DNA of 64,000 bases from positions 62,001-126,000 of the forward strand of contig NZ_RHNN01000007.1 of the NCBI RefSeq assembly GCF_003946245.1, in the 5' to 3' direction. Below the pieces are notes generated by a model. It did not search any database. It was not told the origin of the DNA and worked only from the letters and a program-made list of their open reading frames with translations. The stretch's first letter is position 1, and the number at the start of each line of letters is the position of its first letter. The position numbers were made by a program, and so were the translations under genes. This document shows, piece after piece, positions 30,821 to 48,375 of the stretch. Source of the stretch: Levilactobacillus cerevisiae (GTDB lineage Bacteria > Bacillota > Bacilli > Lactobacillales > Lactobacillaceae).

Positions 30821-30922
30821 GAAACCCACCTCCTTTGTGCTTTAATCCTAGTGTATCATGAAATGCCGACTTACCGTGCGCCAAATTTAGACGGACGGAT
30901 AAGGACTAGCCTCAGCAATACC

Positions 30923-30970: not shown

Positions 30971-31769
30971 ACGCTAAATCTGTCGTTAAGTAGAGCCGTT
31001 GTAACTGGTGGATCATAGCTTCGGATAAACCTATGTAATCCACTAGGTAGGGCTTTATCCCACCAAACTCGCCGTCAATCAAGGTCAATGCTTGGTCAAA
31101 ATAATCACCGGAGACCGTCGACAAATCAAGGATCGACGATTGAAAGTTTTGGTTCATGTGGTGTCTTCGTGCATCACGAATTCGCCGCACAACGGCTGGT
31201 AGGCAAACCAGATTTGTCGCCAAATAGTCCTGCTTAATCTGTGCGATGGGCACGCCCAACACCCCCAACAATAAGAGGGTACACATACCGGTACGGTCCT
31301 TGCCAGATGTACAGTGGTAAAGAATCGTGGTTCCCGCGCCCCGCGTCGCTAACAGCTCAAAGAACCGTTTATACGCCTGCCGTGGCTGTGCACTAAGGAC
31401 CAATCGCCGGTAAACCCGGAGCATGCGCCGATAACCATTCCGGGGATCATCAGCGTAATACCGATTCAGGCGTTGAATCGTCTGCGTGCTTTCAGTTTCA
31501 TCGTTGTTAAAGATGGGCACGTGACAAACCTGAATCGACTGTGGCACCTTGTCCGGCGCGGTCACCCATTCAGCGTGTGAGCGCGTATCCACCACCACGG
31601 TCACGCCATAAGCCACCAATTTTCGTTGGTCCGCCAGGCTTAACTCGGCGAGATTGTCGGCTCGTAGCAAGGCATGGGTCCGAACACGTTGGCCACTGCG
31701 GGTAACGTACCCGCCAAGCTCACGGGTATTGGGGGCACCGGTCAAAGCTAACGTCCGCTGGCTCAGCAT
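30969..31769 (-). CDS. Tyrosine/serine protein phosphatase-like protein in the pdu operon
   Basis: A protein of about 266 residues of the DSP/PTP family (Y_phosphatase3 type). It has the N-terminal NTRELGG motif and the P-loop HCTSGKDRTG, whose Cys and Arg are the catalytic pair. I prefer ATG 31769 (GGGG eight bases upstream) over GTG 31778. It starts only a few bases after pduU, so it is co-transcribed. It might act on phosphoproteins, phospholipids or nucleotides; the substrate is unknown. Confidence 0.82.
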   Translation of the reverse strand: MLSQRTLALTGAPNTRELGGYVTRSGQRVRTHALLRADNLAELSLADQRKLVAYGVTVVVDTRSHAEWVTAPDKVPQSIQVCHVPIFNNDETESTQTIQRLNRYYADDPRNGYRRMLRVYRRLVLSAQPRQAYKRFFELLATRGAGTTILYHCTSGKDRTGMCTLLLLGVLGVPIAQIKQDYLATNLVCLPAVVRRIRDARRHHMNQNFQSSILDLSTVSGDYFDQALTLIDGEFGGIKPYLVDYIGLSEAMIHQLQRLYLTTDLA

Positions 31770-31782
31770 TTCGACCACCCCA

Positions 31783-32127
31783 TTACGTCCGTGTGATGTC
31801 GGTCACATCAAAGCCCAGCAGGTCGCGGAGGGTCGTCACAACCTGACGTAAGGCCGCTTCAACCTCGGACACTTCACCCACAATGACCACTGACCCGCTG
31901 AACCGATCAATAAAGCCCAAATCAACGTTGCTAGCCTTCGTGGCAATATCCCCAGCAATGATTGACGTTTCACTGGGGGTGATGGTTAAAATTCCCAACG
32001 CATTTCGCGTCGTTTGAATCCCCAGTTTCACGTAGATATCGGGTGTCGGATTGGCAATAATGTGGGCCAGCGTTACCTGCTTACCAGGAACATACTCTTG
32101 AATTGAACGGGCAATGTCTCGAGCCAT
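31783..32127 (-). CDS. pduU: Microcompartment shell protein PduU
   Basis: A 114-residue circularly permuted BMC-domain hexamer protein. The N-terminal [19 protein letters not shown] strand is the PduU/EutS mark that forms a small barrel over the pore. AGGAGAAGG precedes the ATG. In Salmonella it is a minor shell protein. It lies after pduW and before the phosphatase gene. Confidence 0.93.
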
Positions 32128-32142
32128 TTTATTCGCCTTCTC

Positions 32143-33324
32143 CTAACTGTCCAAAACTTTCTTTGTCTCCCGTGCAATCACTAATTCTTCATTGGTTGGA
32201 ATGACCAAGACCTTCACGTGACTGTCCGCCGACGAAATATCCAGGTCATTATCCTCATTGGCATCGGCATCAATCTTCACGCCCAAATAGCCCAAGGCGG
32301 CACATACCCGCTCACGAATTGGTGCAGAGTGTTCACCCACGCCGGCTGTGAAGACCAAGGTTTGGAGACCGCCCAAATCGGCCGTATAGGCTGCGATGTA
32401 GGTTTGAATCTGATGGACGTACACTTGAAGTGCTAATTTAGCCCGTTCGTTGCCGTCAGCTTCTGCCTTAAGCACGTCCCGCACATCATTGGAGACGCCC
32501 GAGAGTCCCAACAGGCCCGACTTGTGATTCAATAGTTGCCGCACGTCCGCCGCACTCAAATGCTCCTTCTCTTCCAGAAATGGCAGGATGTTGGGATCGA
32601 CATCCCCAGAACGCGTGCCCATCACCAACCCAGCCAGCGGCGTGAACCCCATTGACGTGTTCACGGACCGTCCGTCCTTAATGGCACAAACGCTGGCACC
32701 GTTACCTAGGTGACAGGAAATAATTTGTCGCGAAAAGTCCTGGTCGTACCGGCGATTGACCTCACTATAAATGTACTGGTGAGACTGACCGTGAAAGCCG
32801 TAGCGCCGAATGCCATATTTTTCGTAGTACGCGTATGGCAACGCATACATATAGGCCTTTGCCGGAATCGTACTGTGAAATGACGTGTCGAACACCGCCA
32901 CTTCCCGGGCATTGGGAATGAGCTTTTCAAACGCCTCAATTCCCAGCAAATTCACCGGATTGTGTAAGGGTGAAACGTCTGCCAGATCGGCAATCTTCTG
33001 TTGAACCACCGGCGTAATCTCGGTCGATTGCGTATAGTCACGACCACCATGCGCTACCCGGTGGCCAATACCGACAATCTCGGACTTGTCACCGATTGCG
33101 CCACTGTCTAGCAAAGCATCTGTGACCAGTTGCACAGCTGCCGTATGGTCCTGAACATTCTGAACGGTTTGATGATGGCTGCCTTGATAATCATAAGTAA
33201 ATACGGCGTCCGAATGCCCAATCCGGTCAACCAGGCCGCTGATGATCACGGTCTCGGCTGGCATGGCATACAATTTAAATTTCAGCGAGGAACTCCCCGC
33301 ATTTACTGATAAAATTTTTGGCAT
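32143..33324 (-). CDS. pduW: Propionate/acetate kinase
   Basis: A 393-residue acetokinase-family enzyme making ATP and propionate (or 3-hydroxypropionate from glycerol) from the acyl-phosphate supplied by PduL. N-terminal NAGSSSLKFKL and the GHRVAHGG and DTSFH motifs are present. AAGGAAAG precedes the ATG. Its place in the pdu locus marks it as PduW, though by sequence alone it could be called ackA. Confidence 0.93.
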   Translation of the reverse strand: MPKILSVNAGSSSLKFKLYAMPAETVIISGLVDRIGHSDAVFTYDYQGSHHQTVQNVQDHTAAVQLVTDALLDSGAIGDKSEIVGIGHRVAHGGRDYTQSTEITPVVQQKIADLADVSPLHNPVNLLGIEAFEKLIPNAREVAVFDTSFHSTIPAKAYMYALPYAYYEKYGIRRYGFHGQSHQYIYSEVNRRYDQDFSRQIISCHLGNGASVCAIKDGRSVNTSMGFTPLAGLVMGTRSGDVDPNILPFLEEKEHLSAADVRQLLNHKSGLLGLSGVSNDVRDVLKAEADGNERAKLALQVYVHQIQTYIAAYTADLGGLQTLVFTAGVGEHSAPIRERVCAALGYLGVKIDADANEDNDLDISSADSHVKVLVIPTNEELVIARETKKVLDS

Positions 33325-33353
33325 ACGTCATCTTTCCTTTATTTCCAAATTAG

Positions 33354-34475
33354 TTACCGAATCACTTTCTGATATACGGCTTTCAAGTCCTCATCACTTG
33401 GCACGACCGGATTTCCCACGAAGGTTGCATCCAGCTTGGCATCATCAATCACGACTTGGGTCTTGGCTTCAGCATCCTTCACTTCAACTCCGAAGGCCCG
33501 CAACGTCAGCGGACAATCCATTTGAATCATCATTTGATGAATCCGATTGCGTAAGCGTTGAATCGCTAGCCGGTCGGACAAGCCCCGTGAAGCCAGTCCC
33601 GCTTTGCGCGCGGCCTCAGCATATTTATGCATGGCGACCTCGGAGTGTTCGGCGTTATAAGTCACAACATAGGGCAACAGCATCGCGCAGGCCAAGCCGT
33701 GGGGCACGTGGAAATTAGCGCCCAATTGATGGGCCATCGCGTGACAGAAACCCAGTCCAGCATTGGTAAAGGCCATCCCGGCTGCACAAGAAATTTCATG
33801 AACCGTTTGCCGCTTCGTCACGTCATCTCCATGCTGGTAACAATCTACTAAATCATGGGTGATGACATCAATGCCCTTCTCGGCCAAGGCATCCGTGATC
33901 GTATTGGCCCCCTTGGAAACCAACGCTTCCAGCGAGTGGGTCAACACGTCCATGCCAGAATAAGCAGTCACGGCCTTCGGAGCCGTCATGACCAATTGCG
34001 GATCAAGCAGGGCCACGTTAGGCGTTAAGTATGGCTCGCTCAACGGAACCTTAGTGTGATTCTGGGTATCCGATACCACCGCAATGTTGGTGACTTCGGA
34101 GCCCGTACCACTTGTGGTTGGAATCGCCACGAAGTCTTCTAAGTGCGTGTGATTAATTTTTTCACCGAAGAAGCGAATCGCCTTCCCCGTATCAATCGCC
34201 GAACCGCCACCGATACCAATCATGACGGTTGGTTTGACCTGATTGAATTGGGCCACACCAGCCATAATACTGGTCAGTGGTGGGTCCGGCTTCACATCCG
34301 AGAACACACTCACTGTGTTGGATTGATCAAGCCGTTGTTGAATCCCGGCGAGCGTAGGTGTGTCGGGTAAAAACGAATCGCAAACCATCAAAATTTGTTT
34401 ATTCTTCAGTCGCTTTAACCAATCGAGACTATCCACACCGGAAAAAATTTTCGTTGGAATTTGAAATTCTTCCAT
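33354..34475 (-). CDS. pduQ: Iron-dependent alcohol dehydrogenase PduQ
   Basis: A 373-residue type III (Fe) alcohol dehydrogenase that reduces propionaldehyde (or 3-hydroxypropionaldehyde) to the alcohol and regenerates NAD+ for PduP. GGGSAIDTGKA is the nucleotide loop, and the metal His residues lie in GFCHAMAHQLGANFHVPHG. GGGAGG stands eight bases before the ATG, and the gene begins 3 bp after pduP. Confidence 0.94.
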   Translation of the reverse strand: MEEFQIPTKIFSGVDSLDWLKRLKNKQILMVCDSFLPDTPTLAGIQQRLDQSNTVSVFSDVKPDPPLTSIMAGVAQFNQVKPTVMIGIGGGSAIDTGKAIRFFGEKINHTHLEDFVAIPTTSGTGSEVTNIAVVSDTQNHTKVPLSEPYLTPNVALLDPQLVMTAPKAVTAYSGMDVLTHSLEALVSKGANTITDALAEKGIDVITHDLVDCYQHGDDVTKRQTVHEISCAAGMAFTNAGLGFCHAMAHQLGANFHVPHGLACAMLLPYVVTYNAEHSEVAMHKYAEAARKAGLASRGLSDRLAIQRLRNRIHQMMIQMDCPLTLRAFGVEVKDAEAKTQVVIDDAKLDATFVGNPVVPSDEDLKAVYQKVIR

Positions 34476-34478
34476 GGT

Positions 34479-35933
34479 CTAAGCCTCCCAGTTTCTCAGT
34501 GAAAATCCTTCAGGGCTGGTAAACCGACGACGACGCGTAAAGGTCTTGGTCGTCGTGGTCCCTTCGCCAGTTGGCGTAGCAATCGTGAAGGCCGCAGCCC
34601 CCGTGAAGTACCCGTCGTCGCCAACCCCGGTTGCGGCAAACGTTGGTCCGTTGGCCACGAAGATTGACGTGTTCATGCGGTGTGCCGCTTGGTTGATATG
34701 CGGCATATTTTCGGAGTGAATGGATGCCGTGTGATGATGGCCACCCTCGACTTCGACAGCTGTCTGCAAAACGCTCTTGAAATCTGGGCAACTGACAACT
34801 GGCAGAATTGGCATCAACATTTCCGTCGTTACTAGCGGCTGGTCCTTGGCGGCTTCAAAGATAATCACTTTCGGGTCACCGGTATACGGAATCTTCGCAG
34901 CCTTGAGAATAACCGCGGCATCCTTGCCAATGTAATCGCGACTTGGCGTTCCGTTCTCTTGAATCGTCATCTGTGTTAACGCAGCAACTTGATCGGCATC
35001 CGTGATGAGAAAGGCACCCGCGGCCTGCATTTTTTCAATCAGCGCATCCTTCACGCTAGCCTCAACGACGACTTCCTTTTCGGCCGTGCAGAGAATGTTG
35101 TTATCAAATGCACAGGAGGTAACCAAGTCATGCGCAGCGAGGTCCAAGTTCGCCGTCTGATCGACCATGGCTGGTGGATTCCCAGCACCGGCACCCACTG
35201 CCTTTTTGCCACTGATCAACGCCTGATGAACCACGTCCGGGCCACCGGTCACAGCAAGCATGGCAATGTCTGGATGTTTCATCATTTCCTGAACGGATTC
35301 GATTGAAGGTACGTCCAGGGAGACGACCATGTTTTTCATACCAGTTGCTTTTTCAACATACTTGTTCAGGTGTTCGATCATCCAGCGAGTAATGTTCTTG
35401 GCACCAGGATGGGCCCCAAAGAACAAGGTGTTCCCGCCAGAAAGCATCATGATTGAATTGTTGATCACCGTTTCGCCAGGATTGGTGCTTGGACCAACCA
35501 CACCGATGACCCCAAATGGCGTGTACTCATACATGGTCATGCCACCGTCGCCCGTTTTGACTTCGGGATCCAGCAACTCAACGCCAGGCGTGTTGTACAG
35601 GGCATCCTTGAGCTTCGCTTCCTTGGCTGCTACGGTACCCATGTCCGTCTCGTCCTTAATCGCTTGGGCAATTTCCTTGAGGTGCGGACCGAAACCGTCC
35701 TTGATGGCCTGAATGACCTTTTTCCGGAAGGCAATCGGCTTATCGGCATAGATTTCCTGTGCTTGCTTTGCCGCAGCCACCGCTTCATCAACGGTTTGAT
35801 AAATTCCGTTACCCAAGCCCTCGGATTGTGCCGCATCGGCAGCCGGTGCCGCGTCGGTCGTCCCTTGCTTGGCCAATTCCTCTGATAATATTCTCCTAAT
35901 TGTTTGCTCTAAATCACTCGTCTGCATATCCAA
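34479..35933 (-). CDS. pduP: CoA-acylating propionaldehyde dehydrogenase
   Basis: A 484-residue NAD+-dependent enzyme that turns propionaldehyde plus CoA into propionyl-CoA inside the microcompartment. The catalytic Cys is Cys282 (LCTAEKE). Residues 5-22 (TSDLEQTIRRILSEELAK) form the amphipathic encapsulation helix, followed by an Ala-rich linker. The start is TTG 35933 (seven to eight bases after GAGGAAG); ATG at 35927 is the alternative. Confidence 0.94.
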   Translation of the reverse strand: MDMQTSDLEQTIRRILSEELAKQGTTDAAPAADAAQSEGLGNGIYQTVDEAVAAAKQAQEIYADKPIAFRKKVIQAIKDGFGPHLKEIAQAIKDETDMGTVAAKEAKLKDALYNTPGVELLDPEVKTGDGGMTMYEYTPFGVIGVVGPSTNPGETVINNSIMMLSGGNTLFFGAHPGAKNITRWMIEHLNKYVEKATGMKNMVVSLDVPSIESVQEMMKHPDIAMLAVTGGPDVVHQALISGKKAVGAGAGNPPAMVDQTANLDLAAHDLVTSCAFDNNILCTAEKEVVVEASVKDALIEKMQAAGAFLITDADQVAALTQMTIQENGTPSRDYIGKDAAVILKAAKIPYTGDPKVIIFEAAKDQPLVTTEMLMPILPVVSCPDFKSVLQTAVEVEGGHHHTASIHSENMPHINQAAHRMNTSIFVANGPTFAATGVGDDGYFTGAAAFTIATPTGEGTTTTKTFTRRRRFTSPEGFSLRNWEA

Positions 35934-35934
35934 G

Positions 35935-36408
35935 TCACGCTTCCTCTAAAAATTCCTGAACGGCTACTTCGCAGATTGCCTGGTCTTCCTCGACCAAGCC
36001 GCCACTGACACCAATGGCCCCAACGAGTTTGCCGTCAATCATCAACGGTATCCCGCCCGGAAAGGAGACCAATTTACCGTCGAGCATGGTTTCCATTTGA
36101 TATAAAGGTCCCCCCGGTTGCGTCTCACGGTTAATTTGCTTGGTTGGTTCCTTCATCGCAATCGCCGACCACGCCTTCTTGGGCGCCAGTAACGAGCCGA
36201 CCAAGTTGCCATTGGGCATGTGGTACAGCATCTGCACGGTCATCGTGAGATCCATGAAGCAGATGGTCACGCCAACGTGCAGGTCATCTGCCTTAGCAAC
36301 CGCCGCATCAATCACCCGTTCCATCTTTTTTCGGTCAAATAGCTGAGGTGGGCTTTGTTCCGCCATCACGCCGCGGACAATTTGGCTGAGTTGTTTTGCA
36401 TCCATCAT
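35935..36408 (-). CDS. HbpS/GlcG-like (PduO C-terminal type) protein
   Basis: A 157-residue protein. The core (about 25-155) is the HbpS/GlcG fold found as the C-terminal half of Salmonella PduO, with the GGIPLMIDGKLVGAIGVSGG motif. The first 20 residues (MDAKQLSQIVRGVMAEQSPP) look like a microcompartment encapsulation helix. It overlaps pduO by 4 bp. Relatives bind heme or corrinoid; a cofactor role with PduO is inferred. Confidence 0.85.
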   Translation of the reverse strand: MMDAKQLSQIVRGVMAEQSPPQLFDRKKMERVIDAAVAKADDLHVGVTICFMDLTMTVQMLYHMPNGNLVGSLLAPKKAWSAIAMKEPTKQINRETQPGGPLYQMETMLDGKLVSFPGGIPLMIDGKLVGAIGVSGGLVEEDQAICEVAVQEFLEEA

Positions 36409-36989
36409 TGATCACCTTCCCTGACGGCCTCAAGGTAGCGTTTGCTGACCTGTGCAACGATTGTCTGCAGGCGTTGTTCGTCGTCTTCTGACCGCGCAAT
36501 GATATAGAAGAAATCTGACAAGCGGTTCACGTACCGCTCCAGCTCCGGTCGCACGGGATGGTCCTTCATAAAGGCCACCAGCAACCGTTCCGCTCGCCGA
36601 CAGACTGTCCGACAGACGTGCAACTGCGCACCGGCCGTGCTGGATCCCGGTAAAATAAACTGGTCAATCTTGGGCAACTGGGCCGTCTTGTCATCAATCG
36701 CCTGTTCCAAGAACTGGACGTCTTCGGCGGTAATCAACCGGCTGTTCGCTTGAAAGGTGGTTGCGTGCTGCGAAGCCAGTTCGCCTTGGAGAAAGAACAT
36801 GTGGTATTCGACCCACCGCAGAAGCTTGACGTTTTCTGGATTCTGACAAAATTTATCTGCGAGACTCACGTTGGCATTCAATTCATCAAACGTCCCGTAC
36901 ACGTCGACCTGCAGGGAATCCTTGGAGACCCGTTGGCCATCGTACAAACTGGTCGACCCTTTATCGCCGCCTTTGGTATAAATTGGCAA
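36405..36989 (-). CDS. pduO: ATP:cob(I)alamin adenosyltransferase
   Basis: A protein of about 194 residues of the PduO family, which transfers adenosyl from ATP to cob(I)alamin to make coenzyme B12 for PduCDE. N-terminal YTKGGDKGSTSL is the ATP loop, and VCRTVCRRAERLL with the C-terminal NRLSDFFYIIAR shape the active site. TTG 36989 lies eight bases after AAGGAG and gives MPIYTKGG, the usual start. The C-terminal half of enteric PduO is encoded by the next gene. Confidence 0.93.
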   Translation of the reverse strand: MPIYTKGGDKGSTSLYDGQRVSKDSLQVDVYGTFDELNANVSLADKFCQNPENVKLLRWVEYHMFFLQGELASQHATTFQANSRLITAEDVQFLEQAIDDKTAQLPKIDQFILPGSSTAGAQLHVCRTVCRRAERLLVAFMKDHPVRPELERYVNRLSDFFYIIARSEDDEQRLQTIVAQVSKRYLEAVREGDQ

Positions 36990-37007
36990 GACAACCACTC
37001 CTTCTCA

Positions 37008-37271
37008 TCAGACATCGACGGTATCAATAATCCCGACGATTGAACAATCATTGACGTCGTTGGCCACGTTGTTGACCGTGGCGTGCCGTGCACCAGCACC
37101 ACGCGCTAAGAGCACCCGCTCACCGATACCAGCACCCACCATGTCGGCCGCAACTTCCTGGGCACGCATGGCCTTGCCATCTGCATTAATCGGCTGAACA
37201 ATCATTAACTTTCGTCCGACCAATGAAGAATCCTTTTGCGTTGCAACGACGCTACCAACTACTTTTGCCAT
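37008..37271 (-). CDS. pduN: Microcompartment vertex protein PduN
   Basis: An 87-residue EutN/CcmL-family pentamer protein (MAKVVGSVVATQK...). Pentamers of this type close the vertices of the shell. The ATG at 37271 overlaps the end of pduM by 13 bp; a TTG two codons earlier is possible but does not look like the family. The pore motif region GAGIGERVLLARG is intact. Confidence 0.92.
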   Translation of the reverse strand: MAKVVGSVVATQKDSSLVGRKLMIVQPINADGKAMRAQEVAADMVGAGIGERVLLARGAGARHATVNNVANDVNDCSIVGIIDTVDV

Positions 37272-37762
37272 ATACAATCTTCATCAGTCCTTACCTGTTG
37301 CGTGATGTGCTTTTGCGCCATGGTGGTCACCGCGTCGCTCGTCAGCCGTTGCTTGGTCGAAACAATTAGAATGGCTTGATCCGGCAACGCGGCAATCTCA
37401 GAGCGGCCAATACTGGTTTGATAAAATGCGCGAATCACCCTAGTCGACCCAACTTCAAAGGTGACTGGCCAGTCCCGCAACATTTTTAACGGGATGAAAT
37501 TAATCAGATTACCATTCAGCTGAAACGTAAAGTGCACATCGTAACTCATTCCTTTCAGCAACCACTTAACCCAAGGATCCTGCTCATTCACCCGATACAA
37601 GTTCACCAGCAACTCAATCGTGACGCCCTGGATGGTGATTTGCCCAAAATCAATCAAACTACGGTCACTAGGTAATGGGCCTTGGCGGGAATACGGAATC
37701 GCTTTCATTTTACGTTGCCGTTCAGCAATTCTTTTCAGAACCTCTGCAATAATACGGTCCAT
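37259..37762 (-). CDS. pduM: Microcompartment assembly protein PduM
   Basis: A 167-residue protein of the PduM family, needed for proper microcompartment assembly in Salmonella but of unknown mechanism. The assignment rests on its place between pduL and pduN, its length, and the N-terminal helix DRIIAEVLKRIAERQRKM, itself similar to encapsulation helices. It is the least conserved enzyme-region protein here, so the confidence is moderate. Confidence 0.8.
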   Translation of the reverse strand: MDRIIAEVLKRIAERQRKMKAIPYSRQGPLPSDRSLIDFGQITIQGVTIELLVNLYRVNEQDPWVKWLLKGMSYDVHFTFQLNGNLINFIPLKMLRDWPVTFEVGSTRVIRAFYQTSIGRSEIAALPDQAILIVSTKQRLTSDAVTTMAQKHITQQVRTDEDCIWQK

Positions 37763-37784
37763 TCGTCGTCACCAACTTTCATGA

Positions 37785-38444
37785 TTAAAATGTTGACGGA
37801 ACCTTCGGAATGATGTGGGCTACCGTGTCGGCCTGAACGTTGGCGGCACTAGCCTCATCCGTATCCAGGTGCATCTCCAACGTAAAGTCCTTCCGCGGCC
37901 GCGCAATCACATCGTCAAAGATGGTCCGCCGGCCGTTCGAGTTGATTTCAACCGTCACGGTATCGCCGAGTTTCACGCCAAAGCGTTGCGCATCTTCTAA
38001 GCTCATGTGAATGTGGCGCTTGGCCACGATGACACCCTGGACGGTCACTTCGCCATCCTTCGTCCGGAGCTTGACCGATGGCGTGCCATCCAGGTCACCC
38101 GAGAGGCGCAGGGGCGCGTTGACTCCAAGCTTAAACGTCTCCGAATTGGCAATTTCAACCTGTGAATGGGACCGACACGGGCCGAGGACCCGCACGTGTT
38201 CCAGGCTGCCCCGGGGACCAATCACGTCACAGGTTTGTTCTGCGGCGAACTCGCCCGGTTGCTTCAACTGCTTAAACTTGGTCATTTGTTGGCCAGGAAA
38301 CAGCTTGTCAAAGTCTTCCTGGGCCAAGTGAATGTGATGATTCGAAATGCCAATCGGAATGGCATTGGGATCCGCCGTCACTTCCGCGCAGGCCACCACA
38401 ATTTGCCGAATTAACGACCGTAAATCATTTTCAGTTACTGCCAT
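37785..38444 (-). CDS. pduL: Phosphate propanoyltransferase PduL
   Basis: A 219-residue zinc enzyme that converts propionyl-CoA and phosphate to propionyl-phosphate and recycles CoA inside the shell. The two zinc-binding motifs are SNHHIHL (35-41) and AKRHIHM. The N-terminal helix ENDLRSLIRQIVVACAEV is a targeting peptide. It is unrelated to Pta. It lies between pduJ and pduM. Confidence 0.94.
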   Translation of the reverse strand: MAVTENDLRSLIRQIVVACAEVTADPNAIPIGISNHHIHLAQEDFDKLFPGQQMTKFKQLKQPGEFAAEQTCDVIGPRGSLEHVRVLGPCRSHSQVEIANSETFKLGVNAPLRLSGDLDGTPSVKLRTKDGEVTVQGVIVAKRHIHMSLEDAQRFGVKLGDTVTVEINSNGRRTIFDDVIARPRKDFTLEMHLDTDEASAANVQADTVAHIIPKVPSTF

Positions 38445-38468
38445 AAGTCATCATCCAATCTCGCTGAA

Positions 38469-38744
38469 TCACTTGTTGCCTGGTAAAATACCTTCAACTT
38501 CTGAGTGTGGACGTGGAATGACGTAGGATGAAATAATCTCACCGACATTGCCACCGGCTTGAACACCTGCATCGACGGCGGCTTTGACGGCACCAACATC
38601 CCCACGAACCATCACGGTTACCAGTCCACTACCAATCTTTTCTTGACCAATCATTGAAACGTTAGCGGCTTTGACCATTGCATCGGCCGCTTCAATTGAG
38701 GCAACTAAGCCTTTGGTTTCAATCATTCCCAGTGCATTATTCAT
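38469..38744 (-). CDS. pduJ: Microcompartment shell hexamer PduJ
   Basis: A 91-residue single-BMC-domain protein, nearly identical to PduA over its length ([20 protein letters not shown]). It is a major facet hexamer. The C-terminus is shorter than PduA and ends VEGILPGNK. It lies between pduK and pduL, as in enteric operons, which decides J rather than A. Confidence 0.93.
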
Positions 38745-38784
38745 AATCTATTCCTCCTGATTTTTCTCTTCGGCCTCTGCCTGC

Positions 38785-39393
38785 CTAGCTTTCGGGCTTA
38801 TCCGTTGGCTTTGGCTTAGGCGTTGCCGCTCTGTTGGTCGGTTTCCGACTGGAGCGTCGTCGACTGGCCGGCTTCTTTGCCGCGGGCTTAGCCTTGGCTG
38901 TTGGTGTAGCCTTGGTTTCTGGCTTGGCCTTCGCTGTCGGCGTGGCCTTAGTTTCTGGCTTAACCTTAACTTCCGGCTTAGCCTTCACTGGCGCCGTCTG
39001 CTTGGCCTGGACTGTCGGCACCTGAGACTCTCTGGTTGCCGGTTGGCGTTCGGCCTTTTGCGTAGTCGCCGCCTTTGGCTTGGACTGCGTCGCTTCAGCA
39101 GGCTCCTTTGCCGCTGGTTCATCCGTGAAAACGTTGGTCCGGCCCAGCTCAGTAATACCTTCAGCTGGATTGGCCAAGACTACGGTACTGACCACGTGCA
39201 CGCGACTATCGGCTGTGCCGGCTTCGATTGCCGCTTCAACTGCGGCAACATCCCCCGACACGGACACGGTAATCAGACCGCCAGTGGCATTTTCAATGTT
39301 CTTGATGCCGACTGAAGCTGCCTTCAGCATGTGGTCACCCACGATAATGGCATCCGCAAGACCAATCACTTCAACGTATCCAATTGACTCCAT
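38785..39393 (-). CDS. pduK: Shell protein PduK with a basic, repetitive tail
   Basis: A 202-residue protein. Residues 1-95 are a BMC domain (MESIGYVEVIGLADAIIVGD). The rest is a Lys/Ala/Pro/Thr-rich tail with two copies of AKPETKATPT near 149-172, and it ends in a very basic stretch (RRRSSRK) and KPKP. Enteric PduK has a short metal-binding tail instead, and no Cys cluster is seen here. The tail may bind nucleic acid, polyphosphate or acidic partners; this is inference. Confidence 0.9.
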   Translation of the reverse strand: MESIGYVEVIGLADAIIVGDHMLKAASVGIKNIENATGGLITVSVSGDVAAVEAAIEAGTADSRVHVVSTVVLANPAEGITELGRTNVFTDEPAAKEPAEATQSKPKAATTQKAERQPATRESQVPTVQAKQTAPVKAKPEVKVKPETKATPTAKAKPETKATPTAKAKPAAKKPASRRRSSRKPTNRAATPKPKPTDKPES

Positions 39394-39768
39394 TTAGCTC
39401 ACCTGCCCTTGCAACTTAAACGGTACACCCTTGACCAACCGCGCAGCATTGGCGCCAATAATTCTTGTCGCTTCAACGGTCGTGATTGGCTGTTCAAACA
39501 ACGGCTCCGTGGGTTCCAAATTCTTGTAGTGGACCACAACCTGATTGTGATCGTAGGCAACGCCTACTGAGAGGCGGGACCCCACCGCTGCATCATAAGC
39601 CCGACCCACCAGCGTTTGTGGTGAATCTGCCGTGGCTGGTACGAAACGATACGGAATCTGTTCCTCTTCAATGCCTAAGAGCATCGGCTGTAACCGCTCG
39701 GGCAGCGTCGTCCCGTCCTCCGGAAGTAAGGCAATCAGAATTGCTGGACTATCTGGGTCTTCACTCAT
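39394..39768 (-). CDS. pduH: Diol dehydratase reactivase small subunit
   Basis: A 124-residue protein. With PduG it pulls damaged cobalamin out of PduCDE in an ATP-dependent way. The fold resembles the dehydratase beta subunit (PAILIALLPEDG at the start, VGVAYDHNQVVVHYKN in the middle). Its start overlaps the end of pduG by 4 bp. Confidence 0.92.
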   Translation of the reverse strand: MSEDPDSPAILIALLPEDGTTLPERLQPMLLGIEEEQIPYRFVPATADSPQTLVGRAYDAAVGSRLSVGVAYDHNQVVVHYKNLEPTEPLFEQPITTVEATRIIGANAARLVKGVPFKLQGQVS

Positions 39769-41603
39769 GATTGCTGACGCCTACTTTCATCGGCATACGA
39801 TAGAATCAAACCGGTGGCGACGGCGTTCCGCGGTCCTTCAATCCCCCGAACGTTCCCGCGACCCGCCACTAAGTCATAGTGGGAAAGTTCATCGGTTACG
39901 AGTCCTGGGATTTCGAAGTCAAGCGCTGACCCACCAACGATGACGACAAACGGGATATCCCGGATGTTGCCGGTCGGACTGACGTGGTGCAGTGCCCGCA
40001 AGGCGTTGGTAACAAACACCCGCTTCTTAGCCGTCTGCCGAATCAATTTAATTTTCTCGATGCTCAAATTACCTGGAACCGGTTCGTAGCCATTTGGTTT
40101 CAGCACAACGACTCTGGCAAACAACTCGGCGGGTAAGGGCTTCTCGAAGAATTGAACGGAGCCATCTTCGTGCCGCAGTTGAAAGAGGTTTTCGACCTTG
40201 GCCAGCGGATAACGTTTGATATCCTCTGCTAGGTAGATGTCCTCTAAACCCAATTCTGAGTTGATGATCATTGTGACCATATCGCCAGCACCGGCTAAAT
40301 GAATCGCCACTTTCTGGTTCTGCTTGTTCACAATTGAGGCATCCGTGGAGCCCGCGCCTAAGTCGAGAATGGCGATTGGCTTAGTCGTCCCGGGCGTCGT
40401 CAACGCACCGAGAATGGCGGACTCAGCTTCAGCGCCCCCAATTTCAACGGGGATCCGCAATTCCTTTTTAATTAAATCGGCAATCAATTGCATCTGCAAA
40501 TGGTCCGATTTAACCATCGCCGCAATCCCTACGGCCTGTTCCATTGAGAATTCACCAGCCAAGCCGCCCCGAACTTTGACGGGAACGGACGTGTTAACCG
40601 CCAACAAATCCTGGATGGCGATGTCTTTGTTCGTCTTCCCGGTCAAGTCGGCCATGGTCTGACGCACCTTCTCCAACATGCCCCCGACGTTCGTGCCCGA
40701 TTCGCCGGCAATGTCATCGATTTGATCAAAGACGTTGATCTTGTCCATGATGCTCTGCGCACCGGTCGCCACGTTGACCTTTTGGTGACCCTTGTTGCCG
40801 GCAATGGTGATCGATCCGGCGGGGATGACCCGTGCTTTCACGTCACCCTTGGGCGTCTTGATCACCACGGCGGACCGGTTACCAATCAGGGCCCGTGAGA
40901 CTGGGACAATGTTCTTCGTCTCATCGGAGGTCAACTTGAACAGCGTCGCAATCCCATAAGGGTTAGACAGCTGTGAAATGACCTGACCTTGTGGCGCAAC
41001 TTCCACCGCCGCCAGCATATTGCGCGGCACCTTGTCAATCCGTGCCACTTCATCAACGATGGGAATTCTGTTCGCTAACCGATTATCAACTAGCACCCCG
41101 TCATCGCTCTGCAAAATAGCCGCCGTAATGTGATAACCACCACTGGTATAGGCGTTAATCAATTGGGCAACGTCCGCAAAGTCCATTTCCTTTGAAACAA
41201 TCACAATGTACGCGCGTTCCTTGTCGGTCTGGGCACGGAGATCTAGTAAATCCACCGTGTAGCCGGAACCAGTCCCCACACCACCAGGAGTTCCCGGATT
41301 ATGCCCAATCATCGTTGATTCGGTAATCACCGTTTCCGTAATGGTTTCCATGGCAACGTCGCCAATCACTGGGGTGGCCTCGTTGATCCGAATCAACGAA
41401 ACGTCCGCTAAATTTGTTTTGGTCGTCTCAATCACACGGTGGATCGCATCCTTGACACCAATCAGGTTCTTCTTCGTCCCCTTGATGCCAGTCGTCGGCG
41501 CAATCCCAGAGCCTAGGAAGTGAACCTCACCGGCCGCGGTCACGTCTGCTAAAGCAACTTCAGTCGAGGAATTACCAATGTCTACACCAATTACCCGTGT
41601 CAT
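39765..41603 (-). CDS. pduG: Diol dehydratase reactivase large subunit
   Basis: A 612-residue ATPase of the DdrA/GdrA family with an Hsp70/actin-like fold: the phosphate loop GVDIGNSSTEVALAD at the N-terminus and LDLGAGSTDASIV in the second half. It exchanges damaged cofactor on PduCDE. It lies directly after pduE and overlaps pduH. Confidence 0.95.
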   Translation of the reverse strand: MTRVIGVDIGNSSTEVALADVTAAGEVHFLGSGIAPTTGIKGTKKNLIGVKDAIHRVIETTKTNLADVSLIRINEATPVIGDVAMETITETVITESTMIGHNPGTPGGVGTGSGYTVDLLDLRAQTDKERAYIVIVSKEMDFADVAQLINAYTSGGYHITAAILQSDDGVLVDNRLANRIPIVDEVARIDKVPRNMLAAVEVAPQGQVISQLSNPYGIATLFKLTSDETKNIVPVSRALIGNRSAVVIKTPKGDVKARVIPAGSITIAGNKGHQKVNVATGAQSIMDKINVFDQIDDIAGESGTNVGGMLEKVRQTMADLTGKTNKDIAIQDLLAVNTSVPVKVRGGLAGEFSMEQAVGIAAMVKSDHLQMQLIADLIKKELRIPVEIGGAEAESAILGALTTPGTTKPIAILDLGAGSTDASIVNKQNQKVAIHLAGAGDMVTMIINSELGLEDIYLAEDIKRYPLAKVENLFQLRHEDGSVQFFEKPLPAELFARVVVLKPNGYEPVPGNLSIEKIKLIRQTAKKRVFVTNALRALHHVSPTGNIRDIPFVVIVGGSALDFEIPGLVTDELSHYDLVAGRGNVRGIEGPRNAVATGLILSYADESRRQQS

Positions 41604-41622
41604 GCTAAAACCCCTAACTTTT

Positions 41623-42141
41623 CTAGTTGTCGCCCTTCAGTTTCTGATGCTTTTCGTAATTGGTTGCGGCTTCCTTGAACCAGTTGGAGCAAATCGGTGC
41701 GTTGTACTTATTTGCCAACTCATCGGCAATGTCCAACAGGTCTTGCTTGGAAGAACGGAATGGCCGCAAAGCCCCGTACATTTCCAGTAACCGATCATCG
41801 GGAACACCCGTCAATTCGGCTGCTCGCTGGAAGTTATTTTGAATCTGGGACCGGCCAGCACCAGCAGAAATCTTCCCTTGCATTCTCAACGTTGAAGGCG
41901 CAATCCGCAATTCCTTTGAATCAACCTTGCCATCAACGATGTCTTGGAAAGTAATCGTTTTCAATTGCTTGCCAGATGGTGCCTTTACTAAGTCTGGGTG
42001 CTTTCTGAATAGTGGGAAGTCTTTCGCCGTTAAATTCGGTTCAGAACTTGCCGTATCCGTTGTGGGTGTCTTGGTTGCTGTCCCACCGTTGCCATTTAAC
42101 TCTGACATAATTTTGGCAACTAAATCGTCTACTTCACTCAT
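41623..42141 (-). CDS. pduE: Propanediol/glycerol dehydratase small subunit
   Basis: A 172-residue gamma subunit of the B12-dependent dehydratase. ATG 42141 has GGAGG eight bases upstream and gives MSEVDDLVAKIMSELNG, an amphipathic targeting helix. A TTG five codons earlier lies within the ribosome site. The core (LRIAPSTLRMQGKISAGAGR) is typical. Confidence 0.95.
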   Translation of the reverse strand: MSEVDDLVAKIMSELNGNGGTATKTPTTDTASSEPNLTAKDFPLFRKHPDLVKAPSGKQLKTITFQDIVDGKVDSKELRIAPSTLRMQGKISAGAGRSQIQNNFQRAAELTGVPDDRLLEMYGALRPFRSSKQDLLDIADELANKYNAPICSNWFKEAATNYEKHQKLKGDN

Positions 42142-42167
42142 CAATAATGCCTCCAATCACGTAATCG

Positions 42168-42848
42168 TTAATTAAAGTTAACCTCAATTTCTTCAGCGGG
42201 TTTCCCAACGACAACCTGCTTCGTTTCTTTAATGTGCATCAGGGCAGCCAATGCTTGGTACCGTGGCCGTGCCATTTGGTCGTTGACGGTTGGTACGGGG
42301 TTGGGAGACATCCCCTTGGCATACTGGGCGGCATTCTTCCCGATGGCCCGGAACGTATCGAGGGTCAAGACAGGTGCTTGTGGGAAGAGTTCCAAGTTAT
42401 TCAGCGGATCTTGATCCTTCTGGTGAATAATGGTGGTTCCTTTCGATTGAATGGCAATGGCGATGCCTGAACCTGAAAGCTGATCTGCTTCTGCCGAGAT
42501 AAAGGAAACGTCTGAGGTCCGGTAAACTTTCATGACCCGCGCCTTTAAGCCTTCTTCTTCAACCCCCGCAATCAATTGCCGTAACACATCTTTATGTGAC
42601 TGTTTGACAATCGTCTGCTTCATGACCGTCGCAAAGGCTGGGCCAACCGCAATGACCACTTCGTTCTTGGACCGGCCTGGCTTCGCAGGACCTACTGGTT
42701 TGAACCAGTCGACACTGTCTTCTTGACTAGGACCAGCCGTCGCAACCGCCCCACCGTTAAACGAAACTGGGGTATCAGCGCTCTTCATTTCTCCGAGGAC
42801 ATCACGGATGATGTTCTTGAGTAAAGTTTCATCAATTTCCTGACTCAC
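42168..42848 (-). CDS. pduD: Propanediol/glycerol dehydratase medium subunit
   Basis: A 226-residue beta subunit. Residues 1-22 ([20 protein letters not shown]) are the encapsulation helix known to bring the dehydratase into the shell. The core [20 protein letters not shown] contacts the cobalamin. It lies between pduC and pduE. Confidence 0.95.
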
Positions 42849-42871
42849 TGAACTTACCTCCTTACCTGACG

Positions 42872-44548
42872 CTAGAAGTCAACTTTTTGTGGATCCAAGG
42901 CCCAAGGAATATTCTTAATCTTATTCCACTGTGCTTCGTCTTCCCAAACACGATAGCCGGTTCCTGGCCCCATGTAGTCATTGTTATCGTTAATGGCAGA
43001 AATACAGTTCCAATCCTTATCAAAGATAGCTGAGGTCTGCAGGTAGTCCCCACAAATCTTCTGTTGGGCTAGCTTGAAGACGGCTTGGGCTGTGTCGTCG
43101 ATGCCGTGGTCATCCAACGCCTTGATAATGTCGGAGACCGTCACACCACGATCCATCAGGTCTTGTGCAGCCTTGATGTCCTGTGCCATATCCCGTTTTG
43201 GCATATCGCCTGAGGTACTGCCGTAGGTTGCCGCTTCAACTTCTTCATCGGTAATCTCTGGCAAGCCGAGGCCATCAAAGACGGCTTGAACGGCCTTGGC
43301 AGCTTTCTTACGGATCTTGATTGCTTGATCTTCAGTAATTGGTAAGATACCACCGTTGACGGCCAAGTCACGTTCCATGGATTCATAATCATCGTAGTCT
43401 AAGACATCCATGTTAGAGCCCGCGAAGGTGTTGTCAGAGTTTTCTTCACCAGCGTACCCAGATGAAATGTAGTCAGTCCCAGCAATGAATTGGCCCAACA
43501 TCCGTTCAGTCCGCCGAATATCTGAGTGAGAGAAGGTTTGGTCGTTACTGGAAGCACATTCCAGGTCCATCATCATGCACATCAGGTTTTCACCTAAGAC
43601 TTCACGCAGACCACTTGGAACCGCACTAGGAACACCGATACAACTAACACTCCCGTTTTGCAGGCCCTGAACACCAGATGCTTTGGTAATGTAAATGCAC
43701 CGTGATTCCAGGTAGAGCATGGACTTACCTTCGGTGTAGCCCATCAGGACTTCGGAACCAGAACCGGAACTGAACCGCATCTTCAAGCCACGTGAAGCGT
43801 AGCAGGAAGCCAAGAAGCCTTTAGACCAAGGCGTATCGTCACCATCAGTGAAGACTTTATCAGTCCCATAAACGGAAATGGTTTCGGCATAGGCGGTGAA
43901 GCCCCGCATCCCTAATCCCAGTTCAACCGCTTCTTCAACGGAGCATTGGGTGATCACACCGGGACGACCAGCTTGGGCACCGACCATCAATGAGATGGCG
44001 TTCAGTGGTGCGTAACGCGCAACCGCCGTGGTCGTTTCAAGCTCTGGGAAGCCCCGCAAAGCAGCTTCGGCACCATCGGCAGCAATTTCTGCTGGATTAT
44101 CCAAGGTGTTGGTAATGTGGGCTTGGGTAAATGGTGTCCGCCGTGGCCGCATCTTTTGCACCGCCATGATCATTTCAGCAAAGTTTAATTGGTTGATGAC
44201 ATCTGAGGCCTTCGCTGGCGTCAAGGCAGTCGTGACTTTAACGACTTCAGAACGCGAAACGTTGGGATCAATCAGCATCTTAGCAATGGATTGGGAGGAC
44301 ATGGCGTTGGCCTTTTCAGCGTTGGCAATGTTAATCCCGTACTCAGCAATGTACTGGTCGATTAAGTCAAAGTCTTCCCGCTTCTTACCATCTAATTCAG
44401 TAATGACCCCGTTTTCAACTTTGAGACTGGCATCTGGGTCGTTCTTGCTACGCATCGCAACAAGCCCTTCGTCGTCCCATTCCTTAACAAATCCGTCCAA
44501 ATGTACTGGACGCTTCTCAAGTTTTTCAAAACGTTTTTGCCGTTTCAA
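42872..44548 (-). CDS. pduC: Propanediol/glycerol dehydratase large subunit
   Basis: A 558-residue TIM-barrel catalytic subunit of adenosylcobalamin-dependent diol/glycerol dehydratase, which converts 1,2-propanediol to propionaldehyde and glycerol to 3-hydroxypropionaldehyde. Family motifs such as [14 protein letters not shown] and [16 protein letters not shown] are intact. Which substrate is preferred cannot be read from sequence here. It follows pduB closely. Confidence 0.96.
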
Positions 44549-44566
44549 TTAAAATCCTCCTCCCAA

Positions 44567-45394
44567 CTACTTAATGTATGATGGAAAATCATTAATCGGT
44601 TTGTCACCCAACTCAGCCAAGAGTTTCAGTCCAACCTCACGACCGGCCATAACGGCTTGCCGAACGGCGCCTGACTCACCACTGATGTGAACCATCCCTT
44701 CGTTTGAGAAGCTGGTTCCATGACCTGGTGACGCGAATGACAAAACATTGACGGAAGCTGTTTTAACGGCGGTATCGGCCATAACGACACCAATACCGGC
44801 AGGCGCGCCACAAATCAGGCCGTACGCTTTACCTTCGGGAGCCCCGAAAGCAAAGTTGCAGGCACCAGAAGCCCGCGCCGTAAATTGAAATTCCAGATGA
44901 CCGGCAGCGGAGTTGTAAACGTCACCGAACGTTCTGCTCAAATTATCCAGCGCCACGTTAATCGCTTGCCGTGCATCTGAAGGATCGTTCCCACCAACAA
45001 TAATTAAGGAACCATGTCCGGCACCACCCTTAGTATCACGGGGTAATTCGATGTCCACGACTTCAGTGTTGGTTTGCTTAACGGCTTCATCAATGGCCAT
45101 GATATGTGGCCCGGCACCAGAACGCGCACTGAGAATCCCTAGAACTGGATACTTCTTGGTGACGTGTAACTTCTCAAGCAACAGTGGATCGACGCTTGGA
45201 ATGACCATACCAATCGTGTCCCCAATTTTACGAGTGCCCACGAATTCTGGAACCACACTCGTTGAATTTAATAGGTCCTTGGTCTCCATTTTCTTGCCTC
45301 CCAACGAACTCATAGCTTCCTTAGGATCAATATTGATACCACGTTTCAGCAGTTCTTGCACAACTTTTTGAATCACATCTTTATCTTCAGTCAT
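44567..45394 (-). CDS. pduB: Trimeric shell protein PduB, with an internal PduB' start
   Basis: A tandem-BMC trimer protein of 275 residues from ATG 45394 (a TTG at 45403 would add three). Residues about 4-20 form an amphipathic helix (VIQKVVQELLKRG), the part that in Salmonella ties the enzyme core to the shell. A second start, ATG 45289 (METKDLLNST), has GGGAGGC six bases upstream and would give the 240-residue PduB'. The gene lies after pduA. Confidence 0.94.
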   Translation of the reverse strand: MTEDKDVIQKVVQELLKRGINIDPKEAMSSLGGKKMETKDLLNSTSVVPEFVGTRKIGDTIGMVIPSVDPLLLEKLHVTKKYPVLGILSARSGAGPHIMAIDEAVKQTNTEVVDIELPRDTKGGAGHGSLIIVGGNDPSDARQAINVALDNLSRTFGDVYNSAAGHLEFQFTARASGACNFAFGAPEGKAYGLICGAPAGIGVVMADTAVKTASVNVLSFASPGHGTSFSNEGMVHISGESGAVRQAVMAGREVGLKLLAELGDKPINDFPSYIK

Positions 45395-45413
45395 CTCTAT
45401 CAACCACTAATCT

Positions 45414-45707
45414 TTATTTGGCAGAATCAGGTGCTTGCTTGGGCAACAACTTCTCAACATCCGTATGTGGACGTGGAATGACATAGTTTGAAACAACTTC
45501 GCCAATGTTTTCTGCAGCTGAAACACCCGCATCTACGGAGGCCTTAACCGCACCAACATCTCCACGAACCATCACCGTAACCAGTCCATGACCAATCTTT
45601 TCTTGGCCAACCAGCGAAACGTTGGCTGCTTTAACCATGGCATCGGCCGCTTCGATTGAAGCCACTAACCCTTGGGTTTCAATCATTCCTAATGCTTCTT
45701 GTTCCAT
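45414..45707 (-). CDS. pduA: Microcompartment shell hexamer PduA
   Basis: A 97-residue BMC-domain protein ([20 protein letters not shown]), the main facet hexamer whose pore passes propanediol. It is the first gene of the operon, behind GGGAGG. The tail [11 protein letters not shown] distinguishes it from PduJ. Confidence 0.95.
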
Positions 45708-45786: not shown

Positions 45787-45815
45787 ATTATAAAGAAGGT
45801 GGGCACGACTATCTT
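45787..45815 (-). promoter_or_regulatory. Probable pdu operon promoter
   Basis: On the reverse strand TATAAT (45792-45787) stands 80 bases before pduA and is flanked by the dyad CTTTATTATAAAG. The -35 position reads AAGATA, far from consensus, as expected for a promoter that needs an activator such as the divergent AraC protein. Confidence 0.55.
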
Positions 45816-45895: not shown

Positions 45896-45937
45896 TGAAA
45901 GCGCTATCTTGTGTTTTTCCTGGAACTAAACTAGAAT
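45896..45937 (+). promoter_or_regulatory. Promoter of the AraC activator gene with an overlapping cre site
   Basis: TTGTGT (45909-45914), a 17-base spacer and TAGAAT (45932-45937) make a good promoter. TGAAAGCGCTATCT (45896-45909) matches the cre consensus in 13 of 14 positions and touches the -35. CcpA bound there could repress or modulate the activator when glucose is present. Confidence 0.7.
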
Positions 45938-46002: not shown

Positions 46003-47076
46003 ATGTCTATTAGTACGCCGACCACTATTGACTACTCCGAACTCTCTGATTCATTTCAGTTATTTTCCAAGATTAGTCAAATCAGCACGTCATTTTATGA
46101 TTTCAGTGATACATTGTTGAAGGATGGAAAAGTTTTCCACGGCTTAAATGATATTCAGCACAATCTCGTTCTGAAGGACTCCGGCATCACGCTTCTGTTC
46201 CCGGTGATTGCCAATGACAATATCATTGGTTTCGTCATTTGTGATGACACCGGTGTCTCCCAGGAGCGGGTCAATCTGTCAAAGACTTACATAGCCAGCA
46301 TCGCCAACGATACGCTGGGCAAGGCGCTGAATACGTCCATTGAGATTCTCAATCCGCTGACGGCGCAAAACATGTCCCAGATGCGCAAGTTCGTGTTGCT
46401 CTTTAAGCCGACGCTCAATCAAATTGACCACGGAGCCACGGCCAAAACTGAAAACGTGGACATCAGCCGCAAGCCGTCGAGCATTGACGACATTCTGGCT
46501 TACGTGCAAAACAACATTCGCAAGCCAATCTCTTTGGAATCCGTGTCGCAAAACGTCTTCCTCTCCCCGTCCTATCTCAGTCGAATCTTCAAAAAATATC
46601 TCCATGTGAATTTTATCGACTACGTGAATTACCAGCGGGTAGCGATTGCCTGCAAATACTTAATGCTCACCGATAACAAGGTCAGTGTCATTTCCAGACA
46701 GGTGGGCTGTTCTCAGAATAGCTACTTCTCTAAAATCTTTAAGAAGGCCACGGGGATGTCGCCGCTGGCCTACCGTCGCACACACGCCGCCGTCCAAAAG
46801 GTCCTGACGATTCCCCGGGACTTGACTTGGCACGACCAGGACACTATTTACGACATCTCGCGCCGGTACTTCCAGAACTTAACGTATGACTTCTCCATTC
46901 AAACCGTTGATGGTTACCCCTACGTCAATCAGATTGGTACCCTGACGGACTCGGGGTCGCGGGGCTGGCTGTACTCGGTTGACTGCCAGCAGCCCACGTC
47001 GCCGTCCAGCACCATCGTTACCGCTGACAACGCTGTGATTCAATGGTTCTACACCAGTCAGGTCATGTCGCACTAA
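46003..47076 (+). CDS. pocR: AraC-family activator (PocR-like) with a transcobalamin-like C-terminal domain
   Basis: A 357-residue regulator. Residues about 9-110 resemble a PocR-type sensory domain, but without its usual Cys cluster. Residues about 160-258 are a full AraC DNA-binding domain with both helix-turn-helix units (SLESVSQNVFLSPSYLSRIF and VSVISRQVGCSQNSYFSKIF). Residues about 278-352 resemble DUF4430, the transcobalamin-like C-terminal domain (IYDISRR, GWLYSVDC, NAVIQWFYT). It faces the pdu operon and probably activates it. Confidence 0.85.
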   Translation: MSISTPTTIDYSELSDSFQLFSKISQISTSFYDFSDTLLKDGKVFHGLNDIQHNLVLKDSGITLLFPVIANDNIIGFVICDDTGVSQERVNLSKTYIASIANDTLGKALNTSIEILNPLTAQNMSQMRKFVLLFKPTLNQIDHGATAKTENVDISRKPSSIDDILAYVQNNIRKPISLESVSQNVFLSPSYLSRIFKKYLHVNFIDYVNYQRVAIACKYLMLTDNKVSVISRQVGCSQNSYFSKIFKKATGMSPLAYRRTHAAVQKVLTIPRDLTWHDQDTIYDISRRYFQNLTYDFSIQTVDGYPYVNQIGTLTDSGSRGWLYSVDCQQPTSPSSTIVTADNAVIQWFYTSQVMSH

Positions 47077-47661: not shown

Positions 47662-48375
47662 TTAAACTGCTACCTTAATGGCCGTCGCAATGATCCCACC
47701 AACGAGCGGACCACACATTGGGACCCATGCGTACCACCATTCGCCGCTACCGCCATTGGGAACGGGCAAAATCGTGTAGGCCAAACGGGGACCCCAGTCA
47801 CGGGCTGGGTTAATCGCGAACCCGGTAGTCGTCCCCAAGCCAGTCCCGATAACGAGAATCAAGGTGCCGACGATGAAGGGCTTCAGGCCCTGAGTAAAGT
47901 CACCCAGGTTCAACAGGACAAAGACAAACCCAAAGGTCGCGACAACTTCAGAAACGAAATTATACATGGGTGACTTGATGGCTGGCCGGGTCGCGAAGAT
48001 GCCGACCGTGTTACCAGCCGCCTCATCCTTGCTGGCCTTAAAGTGTGGGGCGAATTGAAAAATCACAATCGCTGCCCCGACGAACGCACCTAAGAATTGA
48101 CCAGCTAAGTATGGCAAAACCTGAGACCAAGGAAAGAGGCCAAAGATGGCAAACGGAATCGTGACGGCCGGATTTAAATGACCATCGGATCCCAGTGCTC
48201 CGGCAACGTAGACTCCCATTGTCACAGCCAATCCCCAGGAAGTACAGACATACAACCAACTTGAACCTTTCGCATAGGACTTATTCAAGTTCAACCCAGC
48301 CCCGGTTCCGGCCCCGAGCAGGATTAAAACCATGGTCCCGAAAAACTCGCCGACAAATCCATTCAAAATTGACAC
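47662..48375 (-). CDS. pduF: Propanediol/glycerol facilitator (MIP channel)
   Basis: A 237-residue aquaglyceroporin with six membrane helices. The two NPA motifs are at 68-70 (GHLNPAVT) and 189-191 (AINPARD), and the Asp after the second marks the glycerol-channel branch. It would let propanediol or glycerol in. It lies beyond the activator and runs the same way as the pdu operon. PduF is inferred from context; GlpF is the alternative. Confidence 0.88.
   Translation of the reverse strand: MSILNGFVGEFFGTMVLILLGAGTGAGLNLNKSYAKGSSWLYVCTSWGLAVTMGVYVAGALGSDGHLNPAVTIPFAIFGLFPWSQVLPYLAGQFLGAFVGAAIVIFQFAPHFKASKDEAAGNTVGIFATRPAIKSPMYNFVSEVVATFGFVFVLLNLGDFTQGLKPFIVGTLILVIGTGLGTTTGFAINPARDWGPRLAYTILPVPNGGSGEWWYAWVPMCGPLVGGIIATAIKVAV

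Follow-up and report, generated by a model that had tools for sequence, protein, structure and literature searches.

What does an AraC-type regulator beside a B12-dependent diol dehydratase operon sense with a C-terminal tail that the AraC fold does not account for? The question is raised by a gene in the 64,000-nucleotide stretch of Levilactobacillus cerevisiae DNA analyzed here (the window, G000:C67:62001-126000, from a home genome of 3.38 Mb), which stands divergent to a pdu microcompartment gene cluster (Table 1) and which was originally predicted to switch this cluster on through a transcobalamin-like domain that senses the cofactor. The reading frame is intact, running from an ATG at 46003 to a stop codon that ends at 47076, and the closest named relatives of its product are found in Levilactobacillus lanxiensis, wangkuiensis, and angrenensis. 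The product has the double helix-turn-helix (HTH) of AraC/XylS regulators (Pfam HTH_18, 64.6 bits; HTH_AraC, 57.9 bits), and its C-terminal residues are indeed foreign to this fold, as had been claimed, given that the HTH_18 match stops at residue 259 (E = 1.1e-17) and nearly 100 residues follow. The accompanying statement that no cobalamin synthesis genes adjoin the regulator also agrees with the window ORFs, among which, by eye, only the adenosyltransferase was seen.

Table 1. Features of the regulator locus (positions in the window) and cobalamin riboswitches at related loci (positions with a locus prefix).
Feature	Position	Strand	Evidence
AraC-family regulator with C-terminal DUF4430 (transcobalamin-like) domain, 357 aa	46003..47076	+	ORF, Pfam, family profiles
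N-terminal sensory domain, residues 8-118 (weakly PocR-like at most)	46024..46356	+	AF2 secondary structure
AraC-type DNA-binding domain, residues 160-262	46480..46788	+	Pfam HTH_18 1.1e-17; Foldseek matches to AraC-family structures
DUF4430 / transcobalamin-like SLBB domain, residues 263-357	46789..47073	+	Pfam, family profiles, hhalign; weak fold support
pdu microcompartment gene cluster, divergent from regulator	28630..45707	-	ORFs
B12-dependent diol dehydratase large subunit, in pdu cluster	42872-44548	-	Dehydratase_LU (PF02286) at G000:C67:104887-106545
Cobalamin adenosyltransferase, in pdu cluster	36405-36998	-	Cob_adeno_trans
pduA-like shell protein, first gene of the cluster (name by eye)	45414..45707	-	clusters with first genes of related pdu operons
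TATAAT, putative -10 of pduA promoter	45787..45792	-	sequence; conserved across 6 aligned loci
AAGATA box, -35 place, 17 bases upstream of -10; candidate activator site	45810..45815	-	sequence; partly conserved, 6 aligned loci
cre-like site between pduA and regulator promoters	45896..45909	+	sequence
MIP-family facilitator adjoining regulator	47662..48375	-	Pfam MIP 4.8e-39; same cluster beside many relatives
Cobalamin riboswitch before DUF4430 protein gene	L096:9586-9767	-	
Cobalamin riboswitch before DUF4430 protein gene	L089:4580-4747	+	
Cobalamin riboswitch before DUF4430 protein gene	L090:4956-5142	+	
Cobalamin riboswitch before DUF4430 protein gene	L091:4923-5109	+	

The tail had been assigned to DUF4430, the transcobalamin-like domain, with a Pfam profile search proposed as a check, and the outcome of this check depends on the level at which it is made. 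The window protein itself stays below the curated cut-off of 23.8 bits for DUF4430 (PF14478), scoring 14.6 bits (E = 0.046; residues 302-351) as a whole protein and 17.2 bits (E = 0.0072) as a tail alone, but profiles of its family do match. Since the Pfam score of the window protein is too weak alone, the identity was settled by these family-level matches. Specifically, all 43 members of our alignment A1 matched DUF4430 at E <= 1 (best, 4.6e-14), and the Pfam cut-off was exceeded by a paralog in the home genome (G000:C32, L037; 41.8-44.6 bits) and by the relatives L068 (53.1 bits), L050 (27.1 bits), and L043 (24.0 bits); the third home paralog, L038, is among the 43, though it gave no match at E <= 0.01. 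An hhalign comparison of 29 AraC tails with seven separate DUF4430 domains returned a probability of 96.8% (E = 2.6e-10). Further, an HMM from 26 tails, built without the window, L003, or the L005 ortholog, recovered all 13 of the separate DUF4430 proteins at the places surveyed, each of them above the Pfam cut-off, from among 1,061 ORFs (E = 1.4e-11 to 2e-4), and its remaining non-regulator matches below E = 0.8 were only a 778-aa Pfam-DUF4430 protein and a tail fragment broken off from a related regulator. The reverse HMM, built from separate DUF4430 proteins (cluster c14), found 34 of 47 regulator ORFs at E <= 0.01, with the window at 0.0088, and missed 13; beyond regulators and its own members, a 778-aa DUF4430 protein and the broken tail piece were again what it retrieved at this threshold. 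The motifs that had been named, a GW-Y-VN strand and a late W-Y strand, correspond to conserved columns in the 43 rows, where G321, W322, Q330, Q347, and W348 are invariant and Y350 nearly so. At the level of sequence comparison, the regulator tail is thus shown to be a DUF4430 domain and a relative of the transcobalamin beta domain, as the original prediction had it. A plasmid search with the tail as the query gave no match, and neither the tails nor the DUF4430 proteins matched transcobalamin in the PDB by sequence.

Structure prediction, also proposed as a check, lent weak support. The predicted order of strand, helix, and strands fits a beta-grasp with a hairpin insert, in a tail model that is weak (pLDDT 66.5), and a Foldseek search with this model placed transcobalamin in 8 of the best 50 rows (E = 0.28-1.5; best, 5no0 at rank 3). 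Transcobalamin chains are therefore among the fold matches, but none of their rows reached E <= 0.001, and PDZ domains had equal or better scores. The beta domains of transcobalamin and intrinsic factor have been placed in the same SLBB clade as the AraC-fused domain (PMC1796856). Transcobalamin and intrinsic factor are extracellular and have an alpha barrel as their second half, whereas the window regulator is a DNA-binding fusion with no alpha barrel; given that the human transcobalamin beta domain, made separately, binds corrinoids with lowered affinity (PMC5599065; compare the title of PDB 5np4), the alpha domain would be dispensable in principle.

At the other end of the protein, the N-terminal domain had been called PocR-like, a claim that is weakly supported: hhalign against PocR gave 59% with 8 domains and 18% with 12, against 25% for an HTH-segment control, and Pfam PocR (PF10114) had no match in the window protein at E <= 10. 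Salmonella PocR, also of the AraC type, activates pdu and cob and has a sensory domain at its N-terminus. The window protein differs from it in the missing Pfam match, in its extra DUF4430 tail, and in an NCBIfam TransRegPocR score of 92.2 bits against a cut-off of 500, in an alignment that starts at residue 67. Across the home genome, PF10114 had 0 matches at E <= 0.001.

Where regulators of this type occur offers a view of what they might respond to. Among 397 genomes of the family, the regulator was found in 36 (E <= 1e-25, with up to five candidates scored per genome) and the diol dehydratase (PF02286) in 47; both were present in 35, at the threshold used 12 of the 47 dehydratase genomes were without the regulator, and 1 of 350 dehydratase-free genomes had it. 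This sole exception, G155 (regulator at C2:638810-639766), encodes EutB of ethanolamine ammonia-lyase at C2:650184-651482; some 10 kb separate it from the regulator, and genes for EutH and EutQ lie in this interval. Ethanolamine ammonia-lyase is B12-dependent.

All 43 relatives in A1 stand at loci of B12 use, B12 uptake, or B12/cobalt supply. For 37 this follows from a strict rule, by which a dehydratase/reactivase, uptake, or cob cluster has to lie no more than four genes from the regulator; the other six were placed by inspection. Dehydratase or reactivase genes are the neighbors of 14, these together with uptake genes of 8, these together with cob genes of 4, cob genes of 6, and uptake genes of 5. 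The six left without a label by the strict rule are L057, whose near-copy L060 lies beside cob genes; L043 and L068, at the far end of pdu clusters, the latter with an adenosyltransferase; L067, a near-copy of L068 at a contig end; L005:13909-15033, at an ethanolamine locus; and L048, with CbiM and NicO nearby. L052 was labeled cob through cluster c51 alone and is actually at an ethanolamine locus. The regulators at L052:9694-10773 and L005:13909-15033 lie among EutH and other eut clusters, with EutB encoded in the same genomes. That two of the 43 regulators stand at ethanolamine loci favors B12 over the diol as the common signal, and the recurrence of one regulator type at diol, ethanolamine, B12 uptake, and B12 synthesis loci likewise makes B12 the more likely of the two. 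On the tree, locus labels assigned by a looser rule, which also took shell proteins and c51 (a phosphatase, by eye), need 18 changes against a minimum of 6, and the DUF4430 domain stays. The neighbor clusters are BLAST clusters, with some representatives named by Pfam or NCBIfam and others by eye.

Alignment A1 comprises 41 of 51 regulator places and two regulators from L005. Outside it are G317:C17, G111:C43, G264:C148, G316:C7, G199:C81, G347:C4, and G337:C2, as well as G326:C28 (an ORF called at 247 aa though its frame is open over 366), G388 (two pieces), and G084:C4:440345 (no tail); L006, a repeat of L058, is only in alignments A2 and A4. The G084 homolog (L075:9304-10242) lies beside a B12 uptake operon, and its frame stops at about 312 aa with no tail that matches DUF4430; the G388 regulator lies in two overlapping frames (L074:9358-9687 and 9590-10387), in a genome whose dehydratase is also in pieces. 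The DUF4430 domain itself is present in 123 of the 397 genomes, many of them dehydratase-free, and in genomes without diol dehydratase it often occurs in frames of about 130-150 aa.

Within the home genome, three of ten AraC-type HTH matches belong to the DUF4430-AraC family, and they are distributed over pdu (the window regulator, C67), uptake plus a second pdu (C32), and cob/hem (C23). The C32 paralog lies between the second pdu operon and an ECF-type uptake operon that encodes a CbiQ-like T component, a double ATPase, an S component, a protein of no known family, and a DUF4430 protein. The best PDB match of the S component is 6fnp_A (E = 1.6e-11), the B12 transporter ECF-CbrT. The second pdu operon (L037:15391-19957) thus has a DUF4430-AraC regulator of its own and is cut by the contig end. 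The 349-aa protein between the S component and the DUF4430 protein (L037:12506-13555) has a signal peptide by eye and had no Pfam, NCBIfam, or PDB sequence match; it is possibly a partner in B12 capture, perhaps as the alpha-barrel half. The C23 paralog adjoins cobU, a CobB/CobQ-type amidotransferase gene, a HemD-type gene, and further hem genes (these last by eye). The original prediction had noted that no B12 riboswitch was visible, and this extends to the whole home genome, where none was found with 150 of 184 candidates scored.

Elsewhere, regulator and riboswitch do coexist. With up to 52 candidates scored per genome, a cobalamin riboswitch above the cut-off is present in at least 7 of the 36 regulator genomes (at least 10 at E <= 0.001), and mutual exclusion of the two is rejected on this count. 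In G316, G326, and G336, the riboswitch directly precedes the gene of a 761-778-aa protein with a C-terminal DUF4430 domain, behind which follow a protein of no known family and then a second DUF4430 protein; in G199 it precedes the large DUF4430 protein only. By locus, this succession follows the riboswitch-led gene in L096, L089, and L090 and is absent from L091. The riboswitch-led 761-778-aa proteins have DUF1542 and DUF5776 in addition to the C-terminal DUF4430. Other riboswitches precede a member of a NicO-type cluster (G364) or lie beside genes of the adenosyltransferase and alcohol-dehydrogenase clusters (G295, and G084 as a partial match). The riboswitch-led DUF4430 operons look like a surface B12 capture system, where the separate DUF4430 proteins are termed secreted from N-terminal hydrophobic segments recognized by eye; secreted SLBB members have also been described beside CbiO/CbiQ-type transporters (PMC1796856). 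The predicted riboswitches suggest that DUF4430 proteins of the Lactobacillaceae are under B12 control, which in turn supports a corrinoid as the ligand of the DUF4430 domain. Genome context thus ties the tail domain to corrinoids.

The explanation that we consider probable as a whole is that the regulator is a pdu activator with a corrinoid-binding DUF4430 tail that gates activation by corrinoid supply. Its position, and analogy with the L. reuteri regulator discussed below, make control of the divergent pdu cluster, as an activator, the most likely role. The tail most likely binds a corrinoid, which may be cobalamin, pseudo-B12, or a precursor, and activation would then depend on corrinoid supply; for the pdu paralog, the corrinoid-bound state would more sensibly be the active one. 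More speculatively, the N-terminal domain, of unsure kinship, may sense the substrate. The candidate binding site is an AAGATA box where the pduA promoter would have its -35 element, and YAAGATA occurs in 17 of 35 pduA/ecfT upstream regions (38 minus one too short and two near-copies), compared with a mean of 3.57 and a maximum of 9 after shuffling, although these regions share ancestry and part of the motif excess is inheritance. Cre-like 8-mers are enriched in the same regions (e.g., TGTAAGCG, in 10 of 35 against 0.10 expected), and the cre-like site of the window is presumably one of CcpA control.

The alternative that survives best, which we nevertheless judge unlikely, is a different ligand for the DUF4430 domain: in place of cobalamin it may bind, for example, cobinamide alone, cobalt, the diol or aldehyde, or some other soluble ligand. 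This would fit the variety of ligands ascribed to SLBB domains, and a reviewer of the SLBB study cautioned that ligands other than B12 are possible (PMC1796856); the tails have also diverged widely from the separate DUF4430 proteins, which have 13-22% identity to the window tail. However, what diol, ethanolamine, uptake, and synthesis loci share is B12, not a substrate, and DUF4430 homologs sit in riboswitch-led operons. Slightly more doubtful is the notion of a ligand-free structural or dimerization module in an ordinary substrate-responsive activator, which the one tailless homolog (G084) and the weak structure models would suit, but which accords poorly with a tail that retains invariant G, W, and Q positions and that, across the 43 rows, has a mean pairwise identity of 0.452, above the 0.306 of the N-terminal domain and below the 0.535 of the HTH. 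That the tail match is a chance or compositional artefact, as the subthreshold Pfam score of the window protein alone might suggest, is so improbable that we reject it, given the contradiction at the family level by the 43 of 43 matches at E <= 1, the two-way HMM searches among the 1,061 ORFs, and the hhalign probability of 96.8%.

The idea of B12 sensing by a corrinoid-binding tail is not new, as the AraC-SLBB proposal dates from 2007, when Burroughs et al. reported SLBB domains fused to AraC regulators in Lactobacillus and suggested that the signal might be B12, one of its precursors, or another ligand (PMC1796856). Their fusion has the architecture of the window regulator and the same proposed one-component response to B12, a precursor, or another ligand; it differs in that one AraC example is named and, in the accessible portions of that paper, pdu, uptake, and cob loci are not surveyed. 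In Limosilactobacillus reuteri, Lreu_1750 ("PocR") controls the pdu and B12 operons and activates pdu and B12 synthesis, and reuterin and B12 were undetectable in its insertion mutant (Santos et al. 2011, PMC3162504). Like the window regulator, Lreu_1750 is of the AraC type and lies in the pdu cluster, and with 359 aa it has an unexplained C-terminal extension of about 60 residues relative to Salmonella PocR (PMC3162504), a paper from which the words "transcobalamin" and "SLBB" are absent. L050 (359 aa; DUF4430 at 27.1 bits) is likely Lreu_1750 itself or its ortholog; a difference is that the home genome carries three such paralogs, each at a locus of its own. A differing view, riboswitch control of B12 synthesis, has been suggested for two Lactobacillus strains (PMC6167548). 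We found B12 tested as a signal for such regulators in none of the accessible portions of PMC4122935, PMC5064896, PMC6167548, PMC7065357, and PMC11086012. Neither literature linking PocR to transcobalamin, SLBB, or DUF4430, or DUF4430 to AraC, nor a published test of the 2007 AraC-SLBB prediction of B12 sensing was found in a search that most subscription journals lie outside.

New here are the survey over loci of B12 use, uptake, and synthesis, the genome with three paralogs, the regulators at ethanolamine loci, and the DUF4430 homologs led by riboswitches. Few proteins are known to sense B12, CarH and EutR being examples. If corrinoid binding by the tail is confirmed, a relative of one domain of the human B12 carrier would serve as an intracellular bacterial B12 sensor, and a second input would be added to the type of regulator that underlies reuterin and B12 production. 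For the family at large, in a proposal for and against which we find the balance even, Lactobacillaceae may control B12 use (of diol and ethanolamine), uptake, and synthesis through an intracellular transcobalamin-domain AraC family that largely replaces cobalamin riboswitches, with paralogs tuned to different branches; on this view, the well-studied "PocR" of L. reuteri would sense B12.
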